Assembly (NCBI GenBank): GCA_017399405.1
Contig: JAFQCT010000010.1
Coordinates: forward strand, 1-64,000
Direction: 5' to 3'
Origin: Clostridia bacterium
GTDB taxonomy: Bacteria; Bacillota; Clostridia; Oscillospirales; Acutalibacteraceae
Length of the DNA stretch: 64,000 nucleotides
The position numbers and the translations under genes were made by a program. Each line of letters begins with the position of its first letter. Within the stretch, counting starts at the first letter, position 1. Below, piece after piece: positions 47,674 through 62,780 of this stretch. Below the pieces are notes generated by a model. That model saw only the letters and a list, made by a program, of their open reading frames with translations, made no database searches and had not been told where the DNA came from.

Positions 47674-48606
47674 ATGGAAAATTTCAACGTAAATAAGTGT
47701 AAGGCTTTCATCAATTTTATGCTTACACAACAGCAATGGTCTGGTATAAATAAGCAAGATATTGATAAGTGGTTTCTTAATTTCAGAAGTTTAGATACTG
47801 ATGAAATAAAATTAGTTTATAAATTGTTAGTAAATATAATTTATTTTTCTGAAAAAGATGTAACCGATGCTTTGAGATATGGAGTTTTAAATTGTTTGTC
47901 ATATAGTGATATTTTAGAAAAACAAAAAGAAACTTCCTTTGCCCTGAGTCCAAAAGCATTATTGAACATATATAATGAAAAACTGAACAAATCTTGTTTT
48001 GTGCCATTACTTGATAGCGACTCGCCACACGAAAGTGGAAATTCTATTTCAAGATTATTAGTTCAGCAAGGGATTGTAACTGATGATTGTTCTATGTTTA
48101 TAGACAAAGTGCCAGAATTCTTTAAATCACGGGTAGTAGAAAACTTAGTTATAGTAGACGATTGTGTAGGGAGCGGAGACCAATTGACTACATTTTGGAC
48201 GGGTACTATGGTTGATGATGGTGAAGGAGCAATAACAATTAAAGAATTGTGTGAAAAATATAATGTTAAAGCTAACTATTTAACACTTTTTGGATATAAT
48301 AAAAACATCGATTCGTTAAGGGATAATTTCAAGGACTTGAATATCCACTGTGTGCGGTTGTTAAATGACAGTCACCGAGTGTTTTCTGATTTGTCGTATG
48401 TTTGGGAGAGTAAAGAGGAAAGAGACAGTGCTTTTTCTTTGTTTGAATCTTTAACCAAAAATGCAGGCATTCCCTTATTAGGGTATAAAGAATTGGATTT
48501 TGCATTTATAATGCATCGAACCATTCCCGATTGGTCGCTACCGTTGTTTTGGAAAGAAAATAATGACTGGAAGCTGTTATTAAGGAGGAAAAATTCTAAT
48601 GGTTGA
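47674..48606 (+). CDS. phosphoribosyltransferase-like protein of a conflict cassette
   Basis: 310 aa. VENLVIVDDCVGSGDQLTTF (about 155-173) is a PRPP-binding-type loop (hydrophobic strand, two acidic residues, then G-x-G), as in type I phosphoribosyltransferases. N- and C-terminal parts are alpha/beta without another motif. Such proteins beside ORC-like ATPases are annotated as PRTase-CE in recent family collections (recalled, not checked). It may transfer phosphoribose or act on a nucleotide signal. GAGGGAG precedes ATG 47674. Its end overlaps the ATPase gene by 8 bp. Confidence 0.7.
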   Translation: MENFNVNKCKAFINFMLTQQQWSGINKQDIDKWFLNFRSLDTDEIKLVYKLLVNIIYFSEKDVTDALRYGVLNCLSYSDILEKQKETSFALSPKALLNIYNEKLNKSCFVPLLDSDSPHESGNSISRLLVQQGIVTDDCSMFIDKVPEFFKSRVVENLVIVDDCVGSGDQLTTFWTGTMVDDGEGAITIKELCEKYNVKANYLTLFGYNKNIDSLRDNFKDLNIHCVRLLNDSHRVFSDLSYVWESKEERDSAFSLFESLTKNAGIPLLGYKELDFAFIMHRTIPDWSLPLFWKENNDWKLLLRRKNSNG

Positions 48607-50521
48607 GCAGTATAACCCTTTTAAAGAAAATAGAACAGAACAAATGAGAGATTTGTGGAAGTATTATGTGCCTTTTTCTGGTCTTGATGGTGCAGGAAAA
48701 CCGTTGGTGGTAGAAGGTGGCCGCGGAAGTGGAAAAACAATGCTTTTTCAATGTAATTCTTGGAGACAAATAATGCTGCAGATAAAAAAGAATGGAGACC
48801 TTGTTACCGACATTCTTGATAAGAAAGAATTTATTGGCATTTATTATAGAGTTGACACTACATTTGTTGCATCTATGCGTGAACGTGAAGAACAGAATTG
48901 GTCGGCTATATTTGAAACATACTTAAGCATTTGTTTACTTAAAGAATTTTTAGACTTAATAAGTGCGTTAAATGAAAATATGGATTTAGATGCAGAAAAG
49001 ATATCTGAATTTTCACAGACATTTTCCAAAAAGTTATGCCCACAAAGTTCGGTTGATTCAATTAATCTATTCAAAATTGCATGTGACGAGTATTTAGATG
49101 CAATTGAAAATAAAATTAATGGTTCAAACATTGATTCGAAATTTAGATATGTAAAAACTAATCGTTTTGTTACTGATTTGTGTGTTGCTTTTGGAAATTT
49201 GGTTGGTAGAGAAAATCTATTATTTAAAATTTTTATTGATGAATATGAAACCCTTCAAGAGTATCAACAAAAAATTATTAATACATTTATAAAGCATAGC
49301 TCATTACCAGTAGTATTTAATATTGGAATGAGACCCAAAGGTATGAAAACTTCGGGAACTATATCAGAAACAGAGACTATTGAAGCTCCGCATGATTATG
49401 AGGTTCTCCCATTAGGATTTGATGAAAAAGATTATCCCAAAATTGTAAAAGATATTTGTCAAAAAAGAATAGTATTAGGAAAGGAACAAGGGAGAATTCC
49501 TGCTGAAGCATCAGAGGATATTGAATACTATTTGGGCAATTATTCGTTGGAATATGAATTAAATGAAATTGAACAGGTGAAAATGGAATTATCTCATTTA
49601 GATAAACTAAGGGAATTGATAAAAGAAAGGGGAACAGAAGAGGGTCTTACAGAAACAGAAATAATAGATTACAGTGAAAAATTGTGTGATGACGCACCTA
49701 TTCTTAATTCTCGTATTCACTACGCATTATTATGCAAAAAGACTCAATATACGCCCAAATTAACGCAACTATATGATTCTTATGAAAAAAATGATGAACG
49801 TTATGCAGATTGGATGCACAATAGAAAAAATGGTGCAATATTTTTGCTTTGCAAGGAATCAAAAAGAGAAAAGATGTACTATGGGTTTGATGTGTATACA
49901 GCTTTATCCTCCAATATTGTTAGATATTTCTTGGAGTTGTGTGAACATGCCTTTAAAATTGCGTTTTTAAATGGTTATTCATGGGACAAGCCTATCCCTG
50001 AAAAAATGCAATCAGAAGCTGCACGATATGTGAGTGATTATAAAGTTGATGATATCGCAGGTTATGAACCGTTTGGTAAAGAACTCCGTATTTTTGTACA
50101 ATATCTTGGACAAATATTTTATAAATTGCATACGGATGAAGAAAATACTTTAGGTGAACCAGAGCCAAATCATTTTTATACGAAAGACCTTTCATTGCCA
50201 CCTGAAATAAAAAATCTAATAGCTTCTGCCGTTATGTGGAATGTTTTACAAGAGGGTGAAACAACAAAGAAAAAGCAGTCAAAACTATCTCCTGAAACGG
50301 TAGATTATTATTTGAATAAAATATATGTCCCATATTTTGGTATATCATATAGGAGTCAGAGAAAAATCTTTTTGGATGTGAATATATTAGAAAATCTTTT
50401 TAGTGGGGAAGATTCGGTGGCAAAAAAAGGATGGAGGAATTATTTCCAAAGTTCAAAAAATGGCACTGCACTTTCATTAGACCAAATATCATTATTTGAT
50501 AATTGCGGAGGGAATATATGA
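48599..50521 (+). CDS. ORC/CDC6-like AAA ATPase of the same cassette
   Basis: 640 aa. Walker A GGRGSGKTMLFQ (about 40-51) and Walker B LFKIFIDEYETLQE (about 207-220) with a STAND/ORC-like core follow a short start (NPFKENRTEQMRDLWKYYVPF). The rest (about 300-640) is helical. ORC-type ATPases in prokaryotic conflict systems are thought to sense DNA or invader molecules and drive an effector. It is coupled on both sides: 8-bp overlap with the PRTase-like gene and a 4-bp ATGA overlap with the next gene. Confidence 0.75.
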   Translation: MVEQYNPFKENRTEQMRDLWKYYVPFSGLDGAGKPLVVEGGRGSGKTMLFQCNSWRQIMLQIKKNGDLVTDILDKKEFIGIYYRVDTTFVASMREREEQNWSAIFETYLSICLLKEFLDLISALNENMDLDAEKISEFSQTFSKKLCPQSSVDSINLFKIACDEYLDAIENKINGSNIDSKFRYVKTNRFVTDLCVAFGNLVGRENLLFKIFIDEYETLQEYQQKIINTFIKHSSLPVVFNIGMRPKGMKTSGTISETETIEAPHDYEVLPLGFDEKDYPKIVKDICQKRIVLGKEQGRIPAEASEDIEYYLGNYSLEYELNEIEQVKMELSHLDKLRELIKERGTEEGLTETEIIDYSEKLCDDAPILNSRIHYALLCKKTQYTPKLTQLYDSYEKNDERYADWMHNRKNGAIFLLCKESKREKMYYGFDVYTALSSNIVRYFLELCEHAFKIAFLNGYSWDKPIPEKMQSEAARYVSDYKVDDIAGYEPFGKELRIFVQYLGQIFYKLHTDEENTLGEPEPNHFYTKDLSLPPEIKNLIASAVMWNVLQEGETTKKKQSKLSPETVDYYLNKIYVPYFGISYRSQRKIFLDVNILENLFSGEDSVAKKGWRNYFQSSKNGTALSLDQISLFDNCGGNI

Positions 50522-51432
50522 TTAACGAAGAATATTCATTTGATGATTTAAAAGATTTTTTGTTGGATACGGTTGATTTATTGATTGTAGGATGGCCTAA
50601 TCAAGAAGAACGCAGTTGTTTTTTTTATGAGAAATGGTATAATACCGATACAAAGATACTTTTAGTTAAAAGAGAAAAAAACGAAAAAGTTTACTGTAAA
50701 TTACTGGAAAATAAAACAACTGTTTTCGAGAGAAACATTGATTTGTGTGTTGGACTTTCACAGTTGTTAAATCGTTTAAACATAAATCAGAAAAATGTCC
50801 TTATTGATTTATCTAGTTTAGATAATGTATTGATAATGTTTTTAACAAAACAACTTCTTACTAGAGTTGCACCAAAGTCACTGTTTGCATCATATATTCG
50901 ACCAGAGAAGTATAGCAGTCAATCTGGTGATGTTGGATTTGCACTTTCAGAACAAGTAAGTGCTATCGAATCGGTTCCGGGATTTACAAGGCGTGAAAGC
51001 GACAATCAAACACTATGTACATTTCTGGGTTTTGAGGGCAAACGATTAAAGGGAATTTTAGAAACCATTCATGGCTTTGAAAAGTTGGTTCCAATTGTTG
51101 CGTTTCCATCGGGAACACCACAGTGGTATAATGTTACAATGTGGAATAGTATGGATATATTACAAAGTGAAACTAAAGATTTATTGGTATATAAATGCTA
51201 TTCAGAAAGTGTTTTCGATGCAGTAAGATTGTTAAATGAGACGATTGCTCAAGATGAAAATGTGGTGTTGGCACCGTTGGGGACAAGGCCGCATTCTATG
51301 GCGTGTGCAATTTTTGCATGTCAACATCAGGCTACGCGCATAATTTATGATTTTGTTATTGAAAGTGAACATCGCGCAATAGGTGTTTCAGATATAACCA
51401 TATATCATTTATCATCATTTATTAAGTGCTAA
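50518..51432 (+). CDS. unknown third component of the PRTase/ORC cassette
   Basis: 304 aa. Alternating strands and helices (FLLDTVDLLIVGWPN, KNVLIDLSSLDNVLIMFL, VPIVAFPSGTPQWYN, NVVLAPLGTRPHSMACAIF) suggest a Rossmann-like fold. The FLGFEGKRLKGILE and PLGTRPHSMA segments look like conserved motifs of the family, which I know only as uncharacterised. It starts at an ATGA overlap after GGAGGG; a TTG at 50503 is unlikely. No catalytic residues assignable. Confidence 0.65.
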   Translation: MINEEYSFDDLKDFLLDTVDLLIVGWPNQEERSCFFYEKWYNTDTKILLVKREKNEKVYCKLLENKTTVFERNIDLCVGLSQLLNRLNINQKNVLIDLSSLDNVLIMFLTKQLLTRVAPKSLFASYIRPEKYSSQSGDVGFALSEQVSAIESVPGFTRRESDNQTLCTFLGFEGKRLKGILETIHGFEKLVPIVAFPSGTPQWYNVTMWNSMDILQSETKDLLVYKCYSESVFDAVRLLNETIAQDENVVLAPLGTRPHSMACAIFACQHQATRIIYDFVIESEHRAIGVSDITIYHLSSFIKC

Positions 51433-51445
51433 AGAGAGGAATGTT

Positions 51446-52531
51446 ATGGATTATAGCAAGTTTTATACACCACCCTCAATTGCATTTCAATTGGTTAATG
51501 AACTTAATATACCGTCTCCAAACAAGATAATTGATATTTGTTGTGGAAGTTGCAATTTGTTAAGTGCTGCTAAAAAACGATGGGATAAGGCGCACTTATA
51601 TGGTGTTGATATTAATGAGCATATAGTAGAGAGTATCAAATTTAAGCAAATGGATGGGCGTGAATTTGCGCTTGAACATATGGGTGAATTCCCATTGGTT
51701 GTGGCTAATCCTCCATTTGATTATGTTGAAGAAAATATGCAATTTCCCAAATTATTTTCTGGACCTTTTAAGGATTTTAAGACTTCCAGATTGGAAATAG
51801 AAATGTTGATTGCGAATTTGCTTTTATTAAAAGAAAATGGTGTTCTATTAATTATTCTTCCAAGCAGTTTCGTTGAAGCGGAGCGCTTCTTGAAAGTAAG
51901 AAAGATAGTAGCAGAAAAATTTCAAATTGAAAGCATTATACAATTAGATGACGCTACATTTGGAAGCAGTCTTATACGTAGTTATGCATTAATTATAAAA
52001 AATTGTGAACCTATGAATGGCGCTGTAACAAAAATAGGAAGTGCACCATGTAAAGAATTTAAAAATACAATTGTTTTTAAGGACAGTATATCGCTTGAAA
52101 AAATGCGTAGCGGTAATTGGATAGGTTATGAAGATACATATATAGATAACTTAAGAATAAATATAAAACGCGGGAATATTTCAAGTGCTTATTTTGTAAA
52201 GCGGGGCATACCAATATTACACACTGCAAAGTCTAGTGATAGTTGGTCACCCTCAAAGCGATATGTATCCAAGAAAGCTACTCCATCGGTTTATGCGGAA
52301 AAAGGCGATATATTAATTAGTCGTATAGGTAAATCGGCAGGGCAATGGTGTGTATATGACGGAGAGAAAATGCCAATTTCAGATTGTTTGTATTGTATTA
52401 AAGATGTTGACGGTTCTGTCTTGAAAACGATTAATGGTAGAACATATAATTTACCACAAAAAGGCGTTGCAACTAGATATATAACAATGACTGATTTTGT
52501 ATTTTGGATAAATACTTGTAAACAAAACTAA
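51446..52531 (+). CDS. N6-adenine DNA methyltransferase-like protein of the cassette
   Basis: 361 aa. Methyltransferase motif I IIDICCGSCNLL (about 30-41, F-x-G-x-G replaced by C-C-G-S-C), motif IV VVANPPFDYV (NPPF, about 84-93), strand ENGVLLIILPSSFV. The C-terminal 150 residues (GIPILHTAKSSD, KGDILISRIGKSAGQW) resemble the target-recognition part of HsdS and single-chain type I/IIG enzymes, so it may both recognise and methylate DNA. Gap to the previous gene is 13 bp, so it belongs to the same operon. At 361 aa it is shorter than type IIG proteins and has no visible nuclease. Confidence 0.75.
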   Translation: MDYSKFYTPPSIAFQLVNELNIPSPNKIIDICCGSCNLLSAAKKRWDKAHLYGVDINEHIVESIKFKQMDGREFALEHMGEFPLVVANPPFDYVEENMQFPKLFSGPFKDFKTSRLEIEMLIANLLLLKENGVLLIILPSSFVEAERFLKVRKIVAEKFQIESIIQLDDATFGSSLIRSYALIIKNCEPMNGAVTKIGSAPCKEFKNTIVFKDSISLEKMRSGNWIGYEDTYIDNLRINIKRGNISSAYFVKRGIPILHTAKSSDSWSPSKRYVSKKATPSVYAEKGDILISRIGKSAGQWCVYDGEKMPISDCLYCIKDVDGSVLKTINGRTYNLPQKGVATRYITMTDFVFWINTCKQN

Positions 52532-52662: not shown

Positions 52663-52691
52663 TTGACATTATATATATTTTTTTGTAAAAT
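52663..52691 (+). promoter_or_regulatory. promoter of the type I restriction operon
   Basis: TTGACA (52663-52668), 17-bp spacer, TAAAAT (52686-52691), then an alternative TATAAT overlapping at 52691-52696. Confidence 0.75.
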
Positions 52692-52746
52692 ATAATGGAT
52701 TAATTGTATGCATTTATACTCAAAATTGATTTTAGGAGTTGAGGAT

Positions 52747-55155
52747 ATGTTAGGTGCGATTATTGGTGATATCGCAGGTTCCAGATTTGAATGGAATAAC
52801 AATAAAACAAAAGATTTTGATTTGTTAACATACAAGTGTTGTCCAACAGATGATAGCATTATGTCACTTGCGATAGCAAAAGCAATTCTCATATCAAAAA
52901 ACAATGATGAACTTAGTCAAAATGCAATCACTTGCATGCAGGAATTTGGTAATAAATATCCTGATGCCGGTTATGGTGGAAGTTTTGCTTTCTGGCTTAC
53001 TGATAACAACCCGAGACCGTATAACAGTTGGGGTAATGGTGCTGCAATGCGTGTAAGTGCCTGTGGTTTTGCTGCAGCATCTCTTGAAGAAGCAAAAGTG
53101 TTATCAAAGCTCGTTACAGAGGTCACTCACAATCATCCTGAAGGCATAAAAGGAGCAGAGGCAACTACTGTTGCAATTTATATGGCCAAGAGTGGTAGTA
53201 GTTTACTCGAGATTCAGGATTATATAAATAAGAATTATTATAAAATCGATTTTAAACTTGACGATATCCGTGCTGAATATACATTTGACGTTTCATGTCA
53301 GGGTTCTGTACCACAGGCTCTTGAAGCGTTTTTTGAATCAACAAGTTTTGAAGATGCAATAAGAAATGCAATTTCTATTGGTGGTGACAGTGACACCATA
53401 GCTGCAATTACTGGTGGTATTGCGGAAGCATATTATGGCATTCCTGCAGATATCAGAAAACATGCGTTAACATTTCTTGATGAAACACAGCTTACTATTC
53501 TCAATGAATTTGAAAGCAAATATGGTATGATTTCAATGAAGAAAACTTCAACAGGAACAAAAACAGTTAAATATACACCAGACAAAACAACATCAGTTTC
53601 TCGCGAACAAGCTATGTTGGGTGCTGTAAAAATTGCAGAAGAAGCAGATAAAGATAGTGTCGAATGGAAAAAGACAACCAGCAATATGTTATACAACCAT
53701 TTATATGAAGGTTGTAATATTCTTCGTGGACCTATCAACCAAGACGAATTCAAAACTTATGAAATTCCTATATTGTTCTTAAAGCGTATTTCAGATACTT
53801 ATGATGAAGAAACTCAAATCGCAATTGAAGAATATGGTGATGATGTAGCAGATTTTGACGAGGATGAAATTCATAAGTTTATCATTCCGGACGGTTGTCA
53901 TTGGAATGATATAAGAAATACAAGTGAGAATGTTGGTGCAGCTATCGTTAATGCAATGATGGGCATCGAAAGAGCCAACCCTGATACATTGCAAGGTCTG
54001 TTTTCAAGCTTTGATGATGCAAACTGGACTGATAAAACAAAGCTTTCTGACGAAAGACTCAGAGATTTAGTTGAGCACATGTCAAAGCTCAAGGTCGGCA
54101 ATAACAATTACTCTGCTGATGTTATGGGAGATGCCTATGAATACCTTCTTAAGAAGTTTGCAGACTTATCAAAGAAAAATGCAGGTGAATTTTACACTCC
54201 TCGCTCAGTTGTTAAATTACTTGTAAAAATTCTTGCTCCTAAACCCGGCGACACAGTTTATGACCCTGCCTGTGGTACTGGTGGTATGCTTATTGAAGCA
54301 ATTCGCCAGATGAATGACACAAAAGCTACCTATGGACGTATTTATGGACAAGAAAAAAATCTTGCAACATCTGCTATTGCAAGAATGAATCTATATTTGC
54401 ACGGCGCAATGGATTTCAAAGTAACGCAGGGCGATACTCTTCGTTCACCCAATTATATGCACAGAGGTGAATTGAAAACTTTTGATTGCTGTATCGCAAA
54501 TCCACCTTTCGGTCTTTCAAAATGGGGTGCAGACCAATTCTTAACAGATATTTACGGTAGAAATATCTGGGGATGTCCTTCTGATTCCAATGCTGACTTT
54601 GCTTGGTTACAACACCTTGTAAAATCAATGGACCCTAAAGCAGGTCGTTGTACAGTTATACTTCCTCAGGGTGTTTTGTTCCACGGCGGAAAAGAGGGTG
54701 AAATCCGTCAAAAACTTATTGAATCTGACAAGCTTGAAGCTGTAATAACCTTTGTCGGCGGTTTGTTCTATGGTGCTGGTGTTTCAGCATGTGCGCTGTT
54801 CTTGAATAACAATAAACCTGCTGACCGTAAAGGTAAAGTTATCTTAATTGATGGTTCAACAATTTACACTCCACAGAGAGCACAAAACATTATGACAGAT
54901 GATGATGTTGAACGTGCTTATAAACTTTATGCAGATTATGAAAATGTAATTGATTTAGCCAAGGTTGTTACAATTGAAGACATCGCAGCTAAAGACTATA
55001 CACTTTCTGTTAATACATATATTGAAAAAACAGAACAACCAACAGCTGACCCTGCTGTGGTAAGACAGCAGTATTTTGAAGCAGTTGCAGAAGTTGCTGC
55101 AGCTGAAGCAAAACTTATGGAATTATTAAAAAAGGAGGGCTATATCAATGAGTAA
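52747..55155 (+). CDS. hsdM: ADP-ribosylglycohydrolase-HsdM fusion (type I methylase subunit)
   Basis: 802 aa. Residues 1-255 are an ADP-ribosylglycohydrolase (ARH/DraG) domain: IGDIAGSRFEW at the start, the metal ligands in CPTDDSIMSLA (about 34-44) and GGDSDTIAAITGG (about 211-223), and YGGSFAFWL. A linker (about 260-300) leads into a full HsdM. HsdM_N has NHLYEGCNILRG and ILFLKRISDTYDEETQIA. The methyltransferase domain has motif I VYDPACGTGGMLIEA (about 503-517), AGEFYTPRSVV and motif IV CIANPPFG. ARH domains remove ADP-ribose from proteins or nucleic acid. Fusion to HsdM is very unusual. ATG 52747 follows AGGAG 8 bp upstream; an ATG at 52708 is less likely. Its end overlaps the second hsdM by 8 bp. 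Confidence 0.85.
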   Translation: MLGAIIGDIAGSRFEWNNNKTKDFDLLTYKCCPTDDSIMSLAIAKAILISKNNDELSQNAITCMQEFGNKYPDAGYGGSFAFWLTDNNPRPYNSWGNGAAMRVSACGFAAASLEEAKVLSKLVTEVTHNHPEGIKGAEATTVAIYMAKSGSSLLEIQDYINKNYYKIDFKLDDIRAEYTFDVSCQGSVPQALEAFFESTSFEDAIRNAISIGGDSDTIAAITGGIAEAYYGIPADIRKHALTFLDETQLTILNEFESKYGMISMKKTSTGTKTVKYTPDKTTSVSREQAMLGAVKIAEEADKDSVEWKKTTSNMLYNHLYEGCNILRGPINQDEFKTYEIPILFLKRISDTYDEETQIAIEEYGDDVADFDEDEIHKFIIPDGCHWNDIRNTSENVGAAIVNAMMGIERANPDTLQGLFSSFDDANWTDKTKLSDERLRDLVEHMSKLKVGNNNYSADVMGDAYEYLLKKFADLSKKNAGEFYTPRSVVKLLVKILAPKPGDTVYDPACGTGGMLIEAIRQMNDTKATYGRIYGQEKNLATSAIARMNLYLHGAMDFKVTQGDTLRSPNYMHRGELKTFDCCIANPPFGLSKWGADQFLTDIYGRNIWGCPSDSNADFAWLQHLVKSMDPKAGRCTVILPQGVLFHGGKEGEIRQKLIESDKLEAVITFVGGLFYGAGVSACALFLNNNKPADRKGKVILIDGSTIYTPQRAQNIMTDDDVERAYKLYADYENVIDLAKVVTIEDIAAKDYTLSVNTYIEKTEQPTADPAVVRQQYFEAVAEVAAAEAKLMELLKKEGYINE

Positions 55156-56635
55156 CAGAATAACACTTGATGAATTAAAGTCCTACCTTTGGAACTCTGC
55201 TGTTTTGCTTAGAACAAATATTGATGCAGGCGCATATAAGCAGTACATATTTCCATTACTTTTCTTTAAGCGAATTTGCGATGTATATGATGAAGAAACT
55301 CGCTTAGCAATTGCTGAATATGGTGATTCCTACACGGATTTCAGTGATGATGAAATTCACACATTTGTAGTTCCTGAAGGTCATCACTGGAGTGATGTTC
55401 GTCAAGTTTCTGAGAATGTTGGCCTTGCGATTGTTAATGCTTTTCATGCGATTGAAAAAGCAAATATTGACCAGCTTCAGGGTGTGTTTGGAGACGGTGC
55501 ATGGACTAATAAAAATCGTTTGCCTGATGCTTTACTCAAGGATTTGATTGAACATTTCAGTAGTAAGACACTTTCTATTGAAAACTGTCCTGAAGATGAA
55601 CTCGGTCAGGGATATGAATATCTTATCAAAAAATTTGCTGATGACAGTGGTCATACAGCACAGGAATTCTATACTAACCGTACTGTTGTTCATCTTATGA
55701 CAGAAATATTGAAGCCTCAACCGGGCGAATCGATTTATGACCCTACTTGTGGTAGTGCAGGTATGCTGATTTCTTGTATTGCTTACCTCAAAAAACAAGG
55801 TAAAGAGTGGCGTAATGTTAAAGTTTTTGGTCAGGAAATCAATCAGCTGACATCAGCTATCGGAAGAATGAATTTGTTCCTTCACGGTGTACAAGATTTT
55901 AAGATTGTAAATGATGACACATTAAAAGCTCCAGCGTTTATTAATAACGGTGAACTTCAAAAGTTTGATTTGGTCCTTGCAAATCCACCTTATTCTATCA
56001 AGCAGTGGAATCGCGAAGCTTTTGAGTCGGATAAATATGGTCGTAATTTTTTAGGTACTCCACCGCAGGGTAGGGCTGACTATGCATTCTTTCAGCATAT
56101 TCTTGCAAGTATGAAACCTGGGACAGGAAGATGTGCTATTCTTTTTCCTCATGGCATTTTATCACGCGATGACGAGAAAGCTATGAGGAAAAAACTTATT
56201 GAATATGACCTTGTTGAGTGCGTTATAGGAATTGGCAAAAGTCTTTTTTATAACTCTCCTATGGAGGCTTGTATTGTAATTTGCAGAACAAATAAACCTC
56301 TTGACAGAAAGGGTAAAGTTCTTTTAATCAATGCAAAAAATGAAGTTGTTCGAAAAAATACACAAAGTTATCTAAAGGACGAACATATCATAAAAATTGC
56401 AAATGCATATCATGAATTTTCTGAAACTGAAGGTTTTTCTGCAATTGCTACTACCGAAGAAATTGTCAATAATGATAATAAATTGAGCATTCCTCTTTAC
56501 ATAAATAATGTTGGAACAGTCAACATAAGTAGTATAGATGATGCAGTAGCTGAATGGATGGAAAGTTCCTCGGCAACTCGTGAAGAATTCAATAAGTTAA
56601 CAGAATTGATAAAGGCTGGTGAAATAAATGCCTAA
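55148..56635 (+). CDS. hsdM: type I restriction-modification methylase subunit HsdM (second copy)
   Basis: 495 aa, complete. HsdM_N has LLFFKRICDVYDEETRLA, DDEIHTFVVPEGHHW. The catalytic domain has QEFYTNRTVVHLMTEIL, motif I YDPTCGSAGMLIS and motif IV LVLANPPYS. It is clearly paralogous to the HsdM part of the preceding gene (e.g. KRI.D.YDEET..AI.EYGD), so tandem duplication is likely. M2S1 complexes need two M subunits; here they could be a heterodimer, one carrying the ARH domain. GGAGG lies upstream, and 8-bp overlaps exist with both neighbours. Confidence 0.92.
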   Translation: MSNRITLDELKSYLWNSAVLLRTNIDAGAYKQYIFPLLFFKRICDVYDEETRLAIAEYGDSYTDFSDDEIHTFVVPEGHHWSDVRQVSENVGLAIVNAFHAIEKANIDQLQGVFGDGAWTNKNRLPDALLKDLIEHFSSKTLSIENCPEDELGQGYEYLIKKFADDSGHTAQEFYTNRTVVHLMTEILKPQPGESIYDPTCGSAGMLISCIAYLKKQGKEWRNVKVFGQEINQLTSAIGRMNLFLHGVQDFKIVNDDTLKAPAFINNGELQKFDLVLANPPYSIKQWNREAFESDKYGRNFLGTPPQGRADYAFFQHILASMKPGTGRCAILFPHGILSRDDEKAMRKKLIEYDLVECVIGIGKSLFYNSPMEACIVICRTNKPLDRKGKVLLINAKNEVVRKNTQSYLKDEHIIKIANAYHEFSETEGFSAIATTEEIVNNDNKLSIPLYINNVGTVNISSIDDAVAEWMESSSATREEFNKLTELIKAGEINA

Positions 56636-57770
56636 GGTAATATTAAAAGACGTCGTTGAAAGAATAAAAGACAAAGTGGATAAAGATACTTCTAATCTTG
56701 AATATTATATCGGTGGCGAACATTTTGATTATGCCGAAGTGTGTATAACAAGACGTGGAGTTATTCAAGGAAGCACCATTGGACCGGCATTTCATATGCG
56801 ATTTCAACCGGGGGATGTTCTTTTGATGTCAAGAAATCCGCATTTGCGAAAAGCGGGCACTGTTGATTTTGAAGGTATTTGTTCTGATGTTAGTTATGTT
56901 TGCAGAACACGTGATGAAAATGTTTTACTTCAAAAATTTTTGCCGTTCATTTTTCAGTCTGATGATTTCTGGGGATTTGCTGAAAAAAATAAAAAAGGTT
57001 CAACAAATTTCTTTTTGAATTGGTCCGATTTCGAAAGGTATGAATTTTATTTACCCGAAATTGAGGAACAAAAAAAGTTAGCAGAGTTATTATGGGCAGC
57101 ACAAGACACGAAAACATCATATAAAAATCTTATAAAGCAAACTGATGAACTAGTGAAATCGCAATTTATCGAGGAGTTCGGAAAACTTGAATTCAACACG
57201 AAACACTATCCAATTAAAAAGCTGAACGAAATTGCTGACTATTGGAATGGGCTGACTTACAAGCCGACTGACGCAGTTCAGGATGGTAGCGGAATATTGG
57301 TTTTGCGCTCAAGTAATATTCAAAACGGTTCATTAGCATTCACTGATAATGTCCGTGTTGCTTGTCAAATCAAAGAAAAATTGTTTGTCAAAGACAACGA
57401 TATTCTTATGTGTTCACGAAATGGCAGTGCCGCATTAGTAGGTAAAACCGCTCTAATTAAAGGATTAACGGAGCCAATGACTTTCGGTGCATTTATGATG
57501 GTCATCAGAAGTTCATACTATCCATTCTTGAAAACCTACTTTGAATTGCCAGTGTTCAGAAACCAAATTTCAACAGGCACTTCCACTATTAATCAGATTA
57601 CAGGAAAAATGTTGAATGATATCAATATCCCTGTCCCTGATATGGCGGCTATTGAGCGATTCAGAGTATTTGTTGAACAGAGCGATAAATCAAAATTTGA
57701 ACTCAAACAAGCAATCGAAAATATATCAAAACTAATGAAATCTCTCATTCAGCAGGATTTTAATCAATAA
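56628..57770 (+). CDS. hsdS: type I specificity subunit HsdS (active copy)
   Basis: 380 aa. First target-recognition domain (about 1-150, ending FERYEFYLPEIEEQ), central coiled coil (KKLAELLWAAQDTKTSYKN, then VKSQFIEEFG), second TRD (about 185-340) and C-terminal coiled coil (FVEQSDKSKFELKQAIENIS). HsdS fixes the two half-sites of the recognition sequence. TRD2 starts at the repeat TCGCAATTTATCGAG (57159-57173) and ends at CAGAGCGATAAATCAAAATT (57678-57697). The same two repeats bound silent TRD cassettes at 58818 and 59348. Confidence 0.88.
   Translation: MPKVILKDVVERIKDKVDKDTSNLEYYIGGEHFDYAEVCITRRGVIQGSTIGPAFHMRFQPGDVLLMSRNPHLRKAGTVDFEGICSDVSYVCRTRDENVLLQKFLPFIFQSDDFWGFAEKNKKGSTNFFLNWSDFERYEFYLPEIEEQKKLAELLWAAQDTKTSYKNLIKQTDELVKSQFIEEFGKLEFNTKHYPIKKLNEIADYWNGLTYKPTDAVQDGSGILVLRSSNIQNGSLAFTDNVRVACQIKEKLFVKDNDILMCSRNGSAALVGKTALIKGLTEPMTFGAFMMVIRSSYYPFLKTYFELPVFRNQISTGTSTINQITGKMLNDINIPVPDMAAIERFRVFVEQSDKSKFELKQAIENISKLMKSLIQQDFNQ
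57159..57173 (+). repeat. TRD-cassette left repeat, copy 1 (in hsdS)
   Basis: TCGCAATTTATCGAG, encoding S-Q-F-I-E. Identical copies at 58818-58832 and 59348-59362. Confidence 0.85.
57678..57698 (+). repeat. TRD-cassette right repeat, copy 1 (in hsdS)
   Basis: CAGAGCGATAAATCAAAATT, encoding Q-S-D-K-S-K. The same 20 bases recur at 59316-59335 and 59801-59820. The inner CGATAAAT is the reverse complement of ATTTATCG inside the left repeat. Confidence 0.85.
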
Positions 57771-57826
57771 ATTACTAAAAATAATCAATTTAGCGGTGGT
57801 AGACGTCGGTATCAAAGGAGATACTT

Positions 57827-58795
57827 ATGGATAAAAATACTATTGCTAAGATAAAAAAAGAAATGGACCCTATATTGACTGATGTTCAAATGGAACATTT
57901 GTTGAATGTGTTAGTTAGTTGTATTGAAGGCGATGAAACAACAATTAATAATAAAAATATTGATATTGTGCAGCTGTTTCTCGCCGCAAAACGCGTTGAA
58001 GGATGCTCAGAAAAAACAACTCGTTATTATGATTCAACAATAAGAAACGTAATATCAGCAATAAATAAGGATGTTTTTGATATTACAACAGATGATTTGA
58101 GAGTTTATTTGGATGAATATCAATCAAAAAGCGGAGCAAGTAAGGTAACAATTGACAACATTCGCAGAATCCTTTCAAGCTTTTTTGCATGGCTTGAGGA
58201 TGAAGATTATATTGCAAAGAGTCCTGTAAGAAGAATTCATAAGGTTAAAACTTGTAAAACAGTAAAAGAAACATATTCTGATGAATCACTCGAGCTTATG
58301 CGAGACCATAGTGAATGTGTTCGTGACTTAGCTATCATTGATATGTTAGCTTCTACTGGTATAAGAGTTGGTGAACTTGTTAAACTTAACCGTGCTGATA
58401 TTGATTTTGAAAACCGTGAGTGTGTTGTTCTTGGCAAAGGCAATAAACAGCGACGAGTGTATTTCGATGCTCGTACAAAAATTCATTTACAACGGTATTT
58501 AAATAGTCGTACAGATGATAATGATGCACTGTTTGTGTCATTGCAGAAACCACATAATCGACTTTTAATCAGCGGTGTTGAAATAAGACTGCGTGAATTA
58601 GGAAGAAAACTTGAACTCAGTAAGGTTCATCCGCATAAATTCAGGCGTACATTAGCTACAATGGCAATAGATAAAGGTATGCCAATTGAACAAGTGCAAC
58701 AATTACTCGGTCATCAGAGCGTTGACACCACGCTGCAATATGCTATGGTCAATCAAAACAATGTAAAATTATCACATCATAAGTTTATTGGATAA
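57827..58795 (+). CDS. tyrosine recombinase for hsdS shuffling
   Basis: 322 aa, XerC/D-like. SAM-like N-terminal domain (NKNIDIVQLFLAAKRVEG, YYDSTIRNVISAI). The catalytic domain has the Arg in STGIRVGELVKL, Lys in LGKGNKQRRVYF, HKFRRTLATMAI (H-x-x-R), LLGHQSVDTTLQYAM (second His) and the Tyr in LQYAM. AAGGAG precedes ATG 57827. Position between active hsdS and the silent cassettes is typical of recombinases that switch type I specificity. Confidence 0.92.
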   Translation: MDKNTIAKIKKEMDPILTDVQMEHLLNVLVSCIEGDETTINNKNIDIVQLFLAAKRVEGCSEKTTRYYDSTIRNVISAINKDVFDITTDDLRVYLDEYQSKSGASKVTIDNIRRILSSFFAWLEDEDYIAKSPVRRIHKVKTCKTVKETYSDESLELMRDHSECVRDLAIIDMLASTGIRVGELVKLNRADIDFENRECVVLGKGNKQRRVYFDARTKIHLQRYLNSRTDDNDALFVSLQKPHNRLLISGVEIRLRELGRKLELSKVHPHKFRRTLATMAIDKGMPIEQVQQLLGHQSVDTTLQYAMVNQNNVKLSHHKFIG

Positions 58796-58817
58796 AGTTT
58801 GAACAGTTCCAAACGAG

Positions 58818-58832
58818 TCGCAATTTATCGAG
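58818..58832 (+). repeat. TRD-cassette left repeat, copy 2
   Basis: TCGCAATTTATCGAG, identical to 57159-57173. Confidence 0.85.
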
Positions 58833-59315
58833 CTCTTTTATAACAGGAATTATCCTATGGTTCAGATTGGCTCTGTATTAAAACAACATTTGACAACCGA
58901 ACGAATTACAGATACTTTGTGCGAAAAATACGTTACTGTTGCAATGCATGGTAATGGAGTACGAGAAAGAAACATTGACATATATGACCCAAAACCATTT
59001 TCTGCTTATCGTGTTTCGAAGGGACAATTCATCTATTCAAGAATTGATGCAAGGAATGGTGCTTTTGGGGTAATACCAGAGAACTTGCAAAATGCAGTGG
59101 TTAGTAAAGATTTCCCAGTGTTTAATATTGACGATAATATGATATTACCGAGTGTTCTTATGTTTTCGGTTTTAAATGAAAACTTTTTACAGCAAATTAA
59201 GAGGAATAGTTTAGGGACAACAAATCGGCAAAGAATCAAAGAGGAAGTCTTTCTAAAATATTTGATTGTATTGCCGCCGATGAATGTTCAAAAGAAGTTT
59301 GATGATATTATGAAA

Positions 59316-59336
59316 CAGAGCGATAAATCAAAATTT
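59316..59336 (+). repeat. TRD-cassette right repeat, copy 2
   Basis: CAGAGCGATAAATCAAAATT, same 20 bases as in hsdS; the TTTG after it is also shared. Confidence 0.85.
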
Positions 59337-59347
59337 GTCGTTTCAAA

Positions 59348-59362
59348 TCGCAATTTATCGAG
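59348..59362 (+). repeat. TRD-cassette left repeat, copy 3
   Basis: TCGCAATTTATCGAG, 12 bp after the end of right repeat copy 2, so the cassettes are packed head to tail. Confidence 0.85.
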
Positions 59363-59800
59363 ATGTTTGGGGCTATAGATTGCGAAGGAACACATCCTCG
59401 TGTGCAATGGAAAAATGTCCTTACTATTGTTAATGGAAAAGACTATAAATCAGTCGCGCAGGATGATGGTGAGTATCCTGTGTATGGGACCGGCGGAATT
59501 ATGGCAAAGGCATCACAGTATCTTTGCCCTGAAAACACAATTTTGATGGGTAGAAAAGGAACTATAGATAATCCATTGCTAATTCGGGAGAAATTCTGGA
59601 ATGTTGACACAGCTTTTGGCGTAGTTCCTGATACTGATAAGTTAAATTGCGTGTACTTATATTGGTATTGCAAACAGTTGGATTTCACTAAACTTAACAA
59701 GGCAACAACACTGCCGAGTACAACCAAAGCAGACCTGCTTAATTTGTGGATTAACATACCGGAAATGGGTAGACAAATTGAGTTTGCAACATTTGTTGAA

Positions 59801-59820
59801 CAGAGCGATAAATCAAAATT
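59801..59820 (+). repeat. TRD-cassette right repeat, copy 3
   Basis: CAGAGCGATAAATCAAAATT, as in the other two copies. Confidence 0.85.
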
Positions 59821-59861
59821 AATTATTGAAAACACAAAAAATTTAGTCAGGAGGATACTAA

Positions 59862-62780
59862 ATGTTTACAGAAGCAGATTTTGAAAGTATGGTGTGTAAA
59901 ACGCTATCCCAAAACGGATGGAAATACATACCAGCAGAAGAATTGCCAAGAGAACACTCCGATGTTCTTGTTGAGTCTATGGTGAAGTCTGCCCTCATAA
60001 GGCTTAATCCTGTTATAGCGGAAGACCCTTCAAGGGCTGATGAAGTTATATATAAGCTTCGTACGCTTATCCTCTCTGCACAGGCTAATAACCTTGTTGC
60101 AGCAAACGAAGAGTTTAAAAAGCTTGTATTTGAAAATAATTCATTTCCTTTCGGCGAAAACGGAAGAAGTGTGTCTATAGATTTCTTTGGAACATTAACA
60201 CCTGAAAGACTTGCTCTCAATGAGTATGTTGTTACAAATCAGTGGGTTTATCCAAAAGCTGAAGGCGGAAAAAGACTGGATATCGTTTTGCTTGTAAACG
60301 GATTTCCAGTTTCAATTGGTGAGCTTAAAACACCTGTTCGAGAAGCTATTTCATGGATGGATGGTGCCGGTGATATTCTCGCTTACGAAAAAAGTATTCC
60401 TCAAATGTTTGTTACTAACATTTTCAACTTTGCATCTGAAGGTAAAATGTACAGATACGGTTCAATTAATGCACGATTAACTGTTTGGGGACCATGGCAC
60501 ACAGAAGCGCATAAGAGTGAAGGTACATTGCTTGATGTGCAGTATGCACTTACAGATATGATTAAGCCTGAAATCATTATGGATATTTTCAGGTTCTTCA
60601 CCCTTTTCGCAACGGATAAAAAGTACCGAAAGTATAAAATTATCTGCCGTTATCAGCAGTTTGAAGGTGCAAATGCAATTGTAAAACGAGTTGTCGAAGG
60701 AAAAACAAAGCAAGGTCTTATATGGCACTTCCAAGGTTCCGGTAAATCATTGCTTATGGTTTTTGCCGCTCAAAAACTCAGAATGATGCCCGAACTTAAT
60801 GCACCCACAGTTGTAATTGTCGATGACCGTATTGACCTTGAAACTCAGATAACTGCAACATTTAATGCTTCTGATATACCAAACCTTGCAAAAGCAACAA
60901 GTAAAGAAGCTTTAATTGACTTCTTTAAAACTGATATGAGAAAAATCCTCATTACAACTATTTTCAAGTTCGGTGAGGTTGAAGGTGAACTGAATGCACG
61001 TGACAACATAATTCTTATGGTTGACGAAGCTCATCGTACACAGGAAGGCAATCTTGGTGAAAAAATGCGTGCCGCATTACCAAATGCTTTTTTCTTCGGT
61101 CTCACAGGTACACCTATAAATAAACTTGACAAAAACACCTTCCGTACTTTTGGCTCAATTGATGATAAATCCGGTTATCTCAGTAGATACTCATTTGCAG
61201 ATTCAATCCGTGATGGTGCAACACTTCCACTTAATTTTGAACCTGTACCGGTTGAACTCCATGTTAACCAAGAGGTTGTTGATGAAGCGTTTGATAGATT
61301 AGCTCGTGAAGCGGGACTTACAGCATCAGAAAAATCAGATGTAGCAAAGCGTGTTCGCATGGAAGCTATTATGAAGTCTCCTGAAAGAATCGCAAAAGTA
61401 TGTGAGCATATTGCAAACCACTTCCTTACAAAAATTGACCCTAATGGCTTTAAGGGACAAGTTGTTTGTTATGACCGAGAGTGTTGTATGCTTTATAAAA
61501 AAGAACTTGATAAGTATCTTGGTGAATATGCAACAACTATTGTAATGGATACTAATAATGACAAAGAAGATAAATATAAAGAGTGGCGTAGGGACCGTGA
61601 CCAAGAAGCAAAAGTTCTTGACAACTTCCGTGACCCACGTCATCCATTGAAGCTTGTTATTGTTACATCAAAACTTTTAACAGGTTTTGATGCACCTATT
61701 CTTCAGGCTATGTACCTCGATAAACCAATGAAAGACCATACTCTTCTTCAGGCTATTTGTCGTACAAATCGTGTGTATGGTCAGGATAAAACAAACGGCT
61801 TAATCGTTGACTACATTGGTATTTTTGATGATGTTGCAAAAGCACTTGATTTTGATGAAAAGAGCATTCAGAAAGTAATTACTAATATCGAAGAAGTAAA
61901 AAAAGAGTTCCCGAAACTTATGGAAAAATGCTTGATGCATTTTATTGGTGTTGACCGTACTGTTGAAGGTTGGGAAGGCTTAATGGCAGCGCAGGAGTGC
62001 TTGCCTACAAATACAGAAAAAGACAGCTTTGGGGCAGACTATCGTGTTGTTAACCGTGCTTACAATGCACTTTCACCAGACCCATTCCTTGATAGGTATC
62101 GTTATGATTACAGATGGTTATCAAAAGTGTATGAGTCAATCAGACCTGTTGATACAAGAGGACCATTGATTTGGGCATCGGTAGGCGCGAAAACACTTGA
62201 ACTTGTCCATGAAAATATTGATGTTGAAGGTGTAAAAGAAGCAACTGAAGCTGATATTCTTGAGCTTGATGCAGACTTAATTGAAGGATTTATTGAAGGT
62301 GCTGAAGGAGCAAAGAAAAAAGCAAAAAAGATAGAAATTGACCTTGTTGCAAAAATTCTCTCACATACTAAGGATGAACGCTTCATAAAACTCGGTGAAC
62401 GCCTTGAGGAACTCCGTGAAAAGCATGCACAAGGCTTGATTACAAGCATCGAATTTCTCAAGCACTTGCTTGAACTTGCAAAAGAAGCCGCACAGGCAGA
62501 GCGTGAAGTGGTTCCTGTTGCAGAAGTTGACAAAGGCAAGGCGGCTCTTACAGAATTGTTTAATGGAGTGAAAAATTCAAATACTCCCGTTATTGTTGAA
62601 CGTATTGTAACAGATATTGATGATATTGTAAGAATTATTCGCTTCGATGGTTGGCAAGATACAAACGCAGGTAAACGTGAAGTCAAGAAAGCTTTGAGAA
62701 GTGTTGTATCAGTAAAATACAAAATTAAAGATAAAGATGTTTTTGATAAAGCGTACAACTATATTGAAATGTACTATTAA
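59862..62780 (+). CDS. hsdR: type I restriction subunit HsdR
   Basis: 972 aa, complete. N-terminal PD-(D/E)XK nuclease: RLDIVLLVNGFPVSIGELKT (Asp, then E-L-K). SF2 motor: motif I WHFQGSGKSLLMVFAA, VIVDDRIDLETQ, motif II LMVDEAHRTQEG, motif III LTGTPINK, VIVTSKLLTGFDAP and QAICRTNRVYG. The C-terminal region is helical and binds the methylase core. It translocates DNA and cuts far from unmodified sites. GGAGG precedes ATG 59862, inside cassette c. Confidence 0.95.
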   Translation: MFTEADFESMVCKTLSQNGWKYIPAEELPREHSDVLVESMVKSALIRLNPVIAEDPSRADEVIYKLRTLILSAQANNLVAANEEFKKLVFENNSFPFGENGRSVSIDFFGTLTPERLALNEYVVTNQWVYPKAEGGKRLDIVLLVNGFPVSIGELKTPVREAISWMDGAGDILAYEKSIPQMFVTNIFNFASEGKMYRYGSINARLTVWGPWHTEAHKSEGTLLDVQYALTDMIKPEIIMDIFRFFTLFATDKKYRKYKIICRYQQFEGANAIVKRVVEGKTKQGLIWHFQGSGKSLLMVFAAQKLRMMPELNAPTVVIVDDRIDLETQITATFNASDIPNLAKATSKEALIDFFKTDMRKILITTIFKFGEVEGELNARDNIILMVDEAHRTQEGNLGEKMRAALPNAFFFGLTGTPINKLDKNTFRTFGSIDDKSGYLSRYSFADSIRDGATLPLNFEPVPVELHVNQEVVDEAFDRLAREAGLTASEKSDVAKRVRMEAIMKSPERIAKVCEHIANHFLTKIDPNGFKGQVVCYDRECCMLYKKELDKYLGEYATTIVMDTNNDKEDKYKEWRRDRDQEAKVLDNFRDPRHPLKLVIVTSKLLTGFDAPILQAMYLDKPMKDHTLLQAICRTNRVYGQDKTNGLIVDYIGIFDDVAKALDFDEKSIQKVITNIEEVKKEFPKLMEKCLMHFIGVDRTVEGWEGLMAAQECLPTNTEKDSFGADYRVVNRAYNALSPDPFLDRYRYDYRWLSKVYESIRPVDTRGPLIWASVGAKTLELVHENIDVEGVKEATEADILELDADLIEGFIEGAEGAKKKAKKIEIDLVAKILSHTKDERFIKLGERLEELREKHAQGLITSIEFLKHLLELAKEAAQAEREVVPVAEVDKGKAALTELFNGVKNSNTPVIVERIVTDIDDIVRIIRFDGWQDTNAGKREVKKALRSVVSVKYKIKDKDVFDKAYNYIEMYY

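Follow-up and report, generated by a model that had tools for sequence, protein, structure and literature searches.

The 64,000-nucleotide stretch of DNA analysed here (the window; contig JAFQCT010000010.1 of the Clostridia bacterium assembly GCA_017399405.1) carries a type I restriction-modification (R-M) operon whose first methylase gene also encodes an ADP-ribosylglycohydrolase (ARH) domain. The initial annotation, made from the sequence alone, had described a complete ARH domain (GDIAGSRFE, TDDS, GGDSDT) in frame with a complete HsdM and a gene starting at 52747, and both points are borne out. An 815-residue open frame spans 52708-55155 (+) without interruption, with no stop between the ARH and HsdM domains. 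In the numbering of this frame, Pfam places ADP_ribosyl_GH (PF03747) at residues 14-245 (E 2.9e-32; score 112.9 bits, cut-off 26.2), HsdM_N at residues 330-457 (E 5.5e-20) and N6_Mtase at residues 469-776 (E 1e-92), the latter two likewise above their cut-offs. The ATG at 52747 is the better start and gives an 802-residue product, as an AGGAG lies 8 nt upstream and the methionine is kept in at least 90% of an alignment of 32 fusions. Numbered from this start, the ARH motifs fall at 7 (GDIAGSRFE), 34 (TDDS), 127 (THNH) and 212 (GGDSDT), and the methylase motifs at 506 (DPACGTG) and 585 (NPPF). NCBIfam holds no model for the fusion, all nine of its matches there lying below their cut-offs. A promoter-like element precedes the gene, in a region where the whole scan, with 6 sites against a shuffle mean of 3.4 (sd 2.4), is not clearly above shuffled sequence.

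Gene spacing indicates an operon in the order M1-M2-S-recombinase-half S-half S-R, in which the genes overlap or lie at most about 60 nt apart; the fusion heads it, about 215 nt beyond the preceding gene. The motifs NPPF and NPPY reportedly separate m6A (N6-methyladenine) from m4C (N4-methylcytosine) methylases. The fusion (M1) has the former and the second HsdM (M2) the latter, and in the related loci described below every M1 piece long enough to include the motif has NPPF, and every such M2 piece NPPY. The five M1 and three M2 pieces without the motif are fragments that stop short of it, and the sets counted as ARH-less (29 M1, 28 M2) take in window copies (by our reading L002 and L005 for M1, L002 for M2). 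Among solved chains the best matches are the M1 of PacII for M1 (7vru_A, E 1.2e-130) and the M2 of PacII for M2 (7vru_B, E 5e-166), and the fold of M1 is likewise PacII-like by structural comparison. PacII is a non-canonical type I system in which M1 makes m6A and M2 makes m4C, the DNA runs through a tunnel of M1, M2 and S, and the binding of M1 to S is the first step of assembly (PMC9613975). Judged by its sequence, the locus is a complete non-canonical m6A/m4C (M1M2S) type I R-M system of the PacII kind, in which, if the roles carry over from the family, M1 would make m6A and M2 m4C, S would confer specificity, and R would translocate and cut. The architecture proposed by the initial annotation stands; the m6A/m4C kind and the placement of the ARH on the m6A subunit had been missed. 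Direct repeats of 26-30 nt are shared in or just before all three hsdS copies (56628-59884) and suggest specificity switching; with an hsdS, a tyrosine recombinase and half-length cassettes side by side, the system is probably phase-variable.

Table 1. Features of the fusion gene and its operon in the window
Feature	Position	Strand	Remarks
Promoter-like TTGACA-17-TAAAAT	52663..52691	+	upstream of the fusion; 11/12 matches
AGGAG, ribosome-binding-like site	52734..52738	+	8 nt before ATG 52747; read from the sequence
ARH/DraG domain	52747..53526	+	residues 1-260 of the 802-residue fusion; metal motifs TDDS and GGDSDT intact
Linker	53527..53661	+	between ARH domain and HsdM
HsdM, M1 subunit	53662..55155	+	HsdM_N and N6_Mtase; NPPF, predicted m6A
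Second HsdM, M2 subunit	55148..56635	+	NPPY, predicted m4C
HsdS	56628..57770	+	two Methylase_S stretches (Pfam)
Direct repeat D2 in hsdS	57156..57181	+	copies 58815-58840 (69%; immediately ahead of the first half cassette) and 59345-59370 (88%)
Direct repeat D1 in hsdS	57668..57697	+	copies 59306-59335 (83%) and 59791-59820 (100%)
Tyrosine recombinase	57827..58795	+	Phage_integrase with SAM-like N domain (Pfam)
Half-length HsdS cassette	58857..59378	+	173 residues (Pfam)
Half-length HsdS cassette	59363..59884	+	173 residues (Pfam)
HsdR	59862..62780	+	HSDR_N nuclease, D...ExK-like motif; SWI2/SNF2-type motor; Walker A-like and DEAH motifs

The fusion had been treated as more isolated than its distribution shows, and its restriction to this one assembly, raised as a refuting condition, does not hold. 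A scan of a collection of 84,980 species gave 99 stretches, of which 85 were confirmed and 80 kept; among the five discarded because of their low score, loci without the ARH may be over-represented. Because all 80 loci contain an HsdM search peptide, their recovery is independent of the ARH. In these related loci, all from other genomes, the ARH is present on M1 in 53 and absent in 25, and the remaining two (L067, L093) start at a contig edge and are counted as neither, L067 showing linker sequence by eye. Together with the window this makes 54 fusions, 47 of them uninterrupted frames of more than 780 residues (46 in other genomes, cultured isolates included) and seven cut by contig ends or broken (L025, L056, L059, L060, L064, L087, L088). 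Fused copies occur in Bacillota, Verrucomicrobiota, Spirochaetota, Synergistota, Deferribacterota, Pseudomonadota and the archaeon Methanomicrobium, many of the records being metagenome-assembled. M1 is followed by M2 and S wherever the contig continues, with the exception of L088, whose M1 is broken off and which yielded no M2; in the loci where R is seen, it stands after S or before M1. The system is rare and patchy: M2 was matched in 2 of 245 genomes of the order (E 1e-150) and M1 in 3 of 398 genomes of the phylum (1e-120), the own genome included in both counts and one of the three M1 matches having only 42% identity. In viral_contigs, six of seven related loci carry the fusion, one of the six being cut at its start; some neighbours there are recombinase-like by eye, which fits mobile elements, and one locus (L193) may come from the same genome as L020, since the upstream genes are identical. 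The ARH was covered in none of the nine plasmid records with an M1 match.

The history of the domain is read from two quick trees. On the M1 tree the presence of the ARH needs 14 changes, at least seven of them forced by well-supported branches (support by SH-aLRT, an approximate likelihood-ratio test, only). On the ARH tree the fused domains form nearly one clade, with 4 changes among 109 ARHs and three standalone ARHs (L094, L135, L137) inside it. The two trees are best explained by a single old fusion, after which the ARH was repeatedly lost and exchanged. Exchange shows in the pairs L024/L048 and L036/L044, which keep about 87-97% identity across most of the stretch from the upstream gene to the start of M1, ARH and linker included, and fall to about 70% after it; M1 of the window is 89% identical to that of L014, with an ARH only 71% identical. 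The ARH domain is accessory and horizontally exchanged. It is also under purifying selection: the ratio of nonsynonymous to synonymous substitution rates (dN/dS) is 0.03-0.16 for the ARH in fifteen close pairs, the same range as for M1 in those pairs (0.01-0.14).

The metal-binding and catalytic ARH residues are present in the window and nearly invariant across the fusions. The binuclear metal site and the TH motif have been described (PMC9503650). The linker, measured from 53503 to 53661 (53 residues in the window), is nearly constant in length (50-61 residues) across 47 fusions, and its sequence varies (mean identity 34%). A predicted model of the fusion bears out the ARH fold (block means over ten residues of 75-94), as does a structural comparison, made via a second look at the top 1000 chains of Foldseek, in which ARH3 with ADP-ribose and with alpha-NAD is among the nearest solved folds. 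Because the linker and parts of HsdM are poorly modelled in this single model (predicted template-modelling score, pTM, 0.48), the arrangement of ARH and HsdM is not used here.

No partner enzyme that would add ADP-ribose was found at the fusion loci. Six seeds for ADP-ribosyltransferases (ARTs), three ART-PolyVal and three DarT, gave no match in 4657 frames of the 54 loci, in a search whose seeds do not span all ART families, whose flanks differ in length and which did not extend to sirtuins, so that an ART could be missed; by eye, none of the neighbour families present in four or more loci is ART-like. DarT was not found in the own genome and occurs in 1 of 60 relatives; of the 53 fusion genomes 32 were searched, and three of these have it. 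With no partner ART found in the loci, the ARH probably does not belong to a toxin-antitoxin pair, and its opponent, if any, would come from outside.

Standalone relatives of the ARH provide a further context. An ARH match at 1e-50 occurs in 52 of the 398 genomes of the phylum, the own genome included. From 57 of 60 loci fetched (left out were the fused L134 and L147, and L101), 56 ARH genes were compared with control genes, using R-M profiles built from sequences of this analysis on stretches of 4-18 kb. For the controls, the first or an arbitrary part of one contig was taken from each of 40 genomes, out of the 52 that match the ARH; many of these stretches are short. An R-M-like gene adjoins the ARH in three loci: in L142 the ARH ends a type I M-S-R operon, in L177 it lies upstream of R-M-S, and in L143 its neighbours are a GmrSD_N protein and type III-like Mod and Res. 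Among the control genes, 1 of 567 has such a neighbour, compared with 3 of the 56 ARH genes (p 0.0026), a count in which L143 counts itself, having supplied the type III and GmrSD queries. Without L143 the figures are 2 of 55 against 1 of 567 (p 0.022) for adjacency, and 5 of 55 against 4 of 567 (p 0.0004) for an R-M gene within 5 kb. Nine of the 11 plasmid records with an ARH match were inspected, the other two (H36, H39) being unannotated. Two related Sulfurospirillum plasmids (L197, L207) have the ARH after a restriction gene, annotated as restriction endonuclease/McrC family, and DUF4268. In a Methylomonas plasmid (L201) the ARH precedes DUF1819 and DUF1788 (brxA/brxB of BREX), with WYL, YbjN and 5'-deoxynucleotidase genes upstream; this BREX-like pair may be a mere neighbour, since the gene make-up is that of published ARH-centred systems. 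The ARH lies by NAD-salvage genes in two Pseudomonas plasmid records and beside a macro domain in a Selenomonas record, in which vWA and DUF262 genes are further away, and in the Prevotella, Bosea and Pseudomonas FeN3W records no R-M gene is annotated in the stretch.

At L143:7340-15943, a 628-residue protein begins with an ARH, and its C-terminal half has no Pfam match above the cut-off; it adjoins genes for a type III-like methylase, a ResIII helicase and a GmrSD_N protein. Proteins of 748 residues with an ARH are encoded at L098:7012-9255 and L145:7797-10040, the sequence after the ARH in L098 being SseB-like and macro-domain-like by eye. Phages of Porphyromonas and Bacteroides (L198, L208) encode ARHs of 45-47% identity near structural genes.

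The reading we favour, tentatively and at just below an even chance, is that the ARH on M1 is an on-board eraser of ADP-ribose placed by invader ARTs, which keeps restriction working. With its catalytic residues intact, the domain is predicted to be an active ADP-ribosyl hydrolase. An invader ART, injected with phage or conjugative DNA, would ADP-ribosylate R-M subunits or nearby host proteins; the M1-borne ARH would strip that ADP-ribose so that restriction continues during entry, and through its fusion to M1 the eraser would stay with the complex that encounters the entering DNA. Systems in which an ARH has no coupled ART have been predicted to undo ADP-ribosylation by viral enzymes (PMC9503650, section 3.8), and a defence complex that meets incoming DNA and carries an eraser fits this prediction. 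Among the three roles offered by the initial annotation, whose interpretation is overall supported in part, the countering of phage ARTs is best supported: a limited search found no dedicated ART, the domain keeps its catalytic residues, it is an accessory module exchanged horizontally, and the prediction of PMC9503650 points the same way. Somewhat short of an even chance, too, is the fuller proposal that the ARH of M1 frees either the DNA or the restriction complex of ADP-ribose and thereby stops invaders from hiding or disarming, a built-in anti-anti-restriction whose module is shuffled among systems along with the gene next to it and the first part of M1.

Several observations weigh against erasure of invader-placed ADP-ribose. 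A limited literature search found no invader ART that acts on type I enzymes; the 25 close relatives among the 80 do without the ARH; ART-PolyVal exceeded its cut-off nowhere in the own genome and in only 4 of 60 relatives. No Nudix or WYL regulator, phosphatase or chaperone is found among the operon genes scanned with Pfam. Most standalone ARHs (50 of 57 loci) have no R-M-like gene in the stretch fetched, some of their neighbourhoods are metabolic, and the position of the ARH relative to HsdM is not fixed by the predicted model.

The main rival keeps the eraser and changes its substrate: the ARH would remove ADP-ribose from DNA at or near the recognition sites, restoring host DNA or unmasking shielded invader DNA for M1M2S and R. 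That the ARH sits on a subunit of a complex which, by analogy with the PacII tunnel (PMC9613975), would embrace DNA speaks for it, as do the DarT enzymes known to ADP-ribosylate DNA (PMC12255303) and the few standalone ARHs that adjoin type I, type III-like and McrC/DUF4268-type genes or a DUF1819/DUF1788 pair. Yet DarT is missing from the own genome and present in 3 of the 32 fusion genomes searched, its seeds match nothing inside the loci, and the erasers of DNA ADP-ribose named in PMC12255303 and PMC9503650 are DarG and the Macro and NADAR partners of DarT, not ARH. We regard a DNA substrate as unlikely. The removal of ADP-ribose from DNA, as the initial annotation had suggested, is possible and finds no specific support here; its further suggestion that ADP-ribosylated DNA serves as a mark finds none at all.

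Rather improbable, in our view, is a regulatory domain that binds or hydrolyses soluble ADP-ribose, O-acetyl-ADP-ribose or alpha-NAD and adjusts methylation or restriction according to the NAD state of the cell under infection. The presence of ligand-bound ARH3 (ADP-ribose, alpha-NAD) among the nearest folds would suit such a domain, and so would the NAD-salvage and macro-domain contexts of some standalone relatives; however, a pure sensor could do without the catalytic residues, which are retained here, ARH domains are argued to prefer macromolecular conjugates (PMC9503650), and the predicted model gives no fixed ARH-HsdM arrangement. Still less is to be said for an immunity module that guards the cell against ADP-ribosylating toxins of competitors, as Tri1 and Lmo0067 do, with HsdM as a mere carrier in a mobile island, since the tight fusion, the nearly fixed linker length and the grouping of the fused ARHs in one main clade point to a role bound up with the complex, and the ARH is somewhat closer to ARH3 by fold and sequence. 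A functionless passenger or an assembly artefact, for which the 25 ARH-less loci might be cited, is highly improbable given the low dN/dS, the nearly invariant active site and the 46 other genomes, some of them from cultured isolates, in which the fusion is uninterrupted.

If the eraser of invader-placed ADP-ribose is real, a host counter to invader ARTs is physically built into a restriction enzyme. The published orphan-ARH prediction would then become testable in one defined protein whose methylase half has a solved relative in PacII. It would further suggest that, in Bacillota and other groups too, restriction is genuinely countered by ADP-ribosylation of restriction enzymes or of DNA.

Two neighbouring elements deserve a mention. 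The methylase at 51446-52531, directly upstream, was considered as part of the system and rejected; it belongs to a separate four-gene operon (47674-52531) that is whole in L259 without an ARH-HsdM in the 14 kb fetched. This operon encodes PRTase-like, ORC-like ATPase, CARF6-like and methylase proteins, the last with a tail like a target-recognition domain (TRD and ORC by eye). Its order is shared with L259 (59-69% identity) and its first three genes occur in L260; PADLOC gives only domain-level matches to CARF6 and PRTase_III-A and generic methylase matches, and the operon is possibly an undescribed defence system. Elsewhere, a gene of about 535 residues, absent from the window, lies directly upstream of M1 (of R in R-first loci) at L020:7394-9010, L062:4294-5934 and in 21 more loci. 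It joins a methylase-like domain to half an HsdS, NPPF- and DPACGTG-like motifs were not found in any of the 23, and it looks like a pseudo-methylase with a target-recognition domain.

How does the fusion compare with known systems? The bacterial ARHs DraG, Tri1 and Lmo0067 have a coupled ART or toxin, and none was found at the fusion loci in the limited search. DarTG resembles it in having an ADP-ribose-removing enzyme in a defence setting, DarG being a macrodomain-type hydrolase. It differs by its DarT partner, absent as described from the own genome and, by the DarT seeds, from the fusion loci, with DarT in 3 of 32 fusion genomes. ARH3, an ADP-ribosylserine hydrolase (PDB 6G1Q, 2FOZ), is 23-27% identical to the ARH of the window, a level at which specificity cannot be carried over. 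There is a functional likeness to the orphan ARH systems of PMC9503650, which share the ARH, the defence setting and the variable modules; they have no coupled ART, and the six ART-PolyVal and DarT seeds found none here. Those systems often include Nudix or WYL regulators, phosphatases and chaperones, and sometimes restriction-endonuclease-fold genes, whereas here the ARH is fused to a type I methylase, and the term HsdM is absent from that paper. The fusion may be said to work like them and is not filed as a member, because no Nudix or WYL regulator, phosphatase or chaperone was found among the operon genes scanned. PacII (PMC9613975, PDB 7VRU/7VS4) shares the tandem hsdM pair with NPPF in M1 and NPPY in M2, the single HsdS and the single HsdR; its solved M1 chain (499 residues) is without the ARH domain that the M1 of the window has, and the main text of that paper does not contain the term 'ADP-ribos'. 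Nor do the BREX survey PMC12839542 and the review PMC12707154. PMC3900703, considered as a precedent, was ruled out: its ADP-ribosylglycohydrolase is a separate gene beside a permease and a ribokinase, and the R-M system is type III. No description of an ARH-HsdM fusion was found among the titles, abstract openings and passages covered by full-text searches whose scope excluded most subscription journals and all bioRxiv preprints. Each half alone, and the general idea of an ARH directed against viral ARTs, is already known; the novelty seems to lie in the joining of the two within an m6A/m4C type I enzyme, and in the spread and exchange of that fusion.
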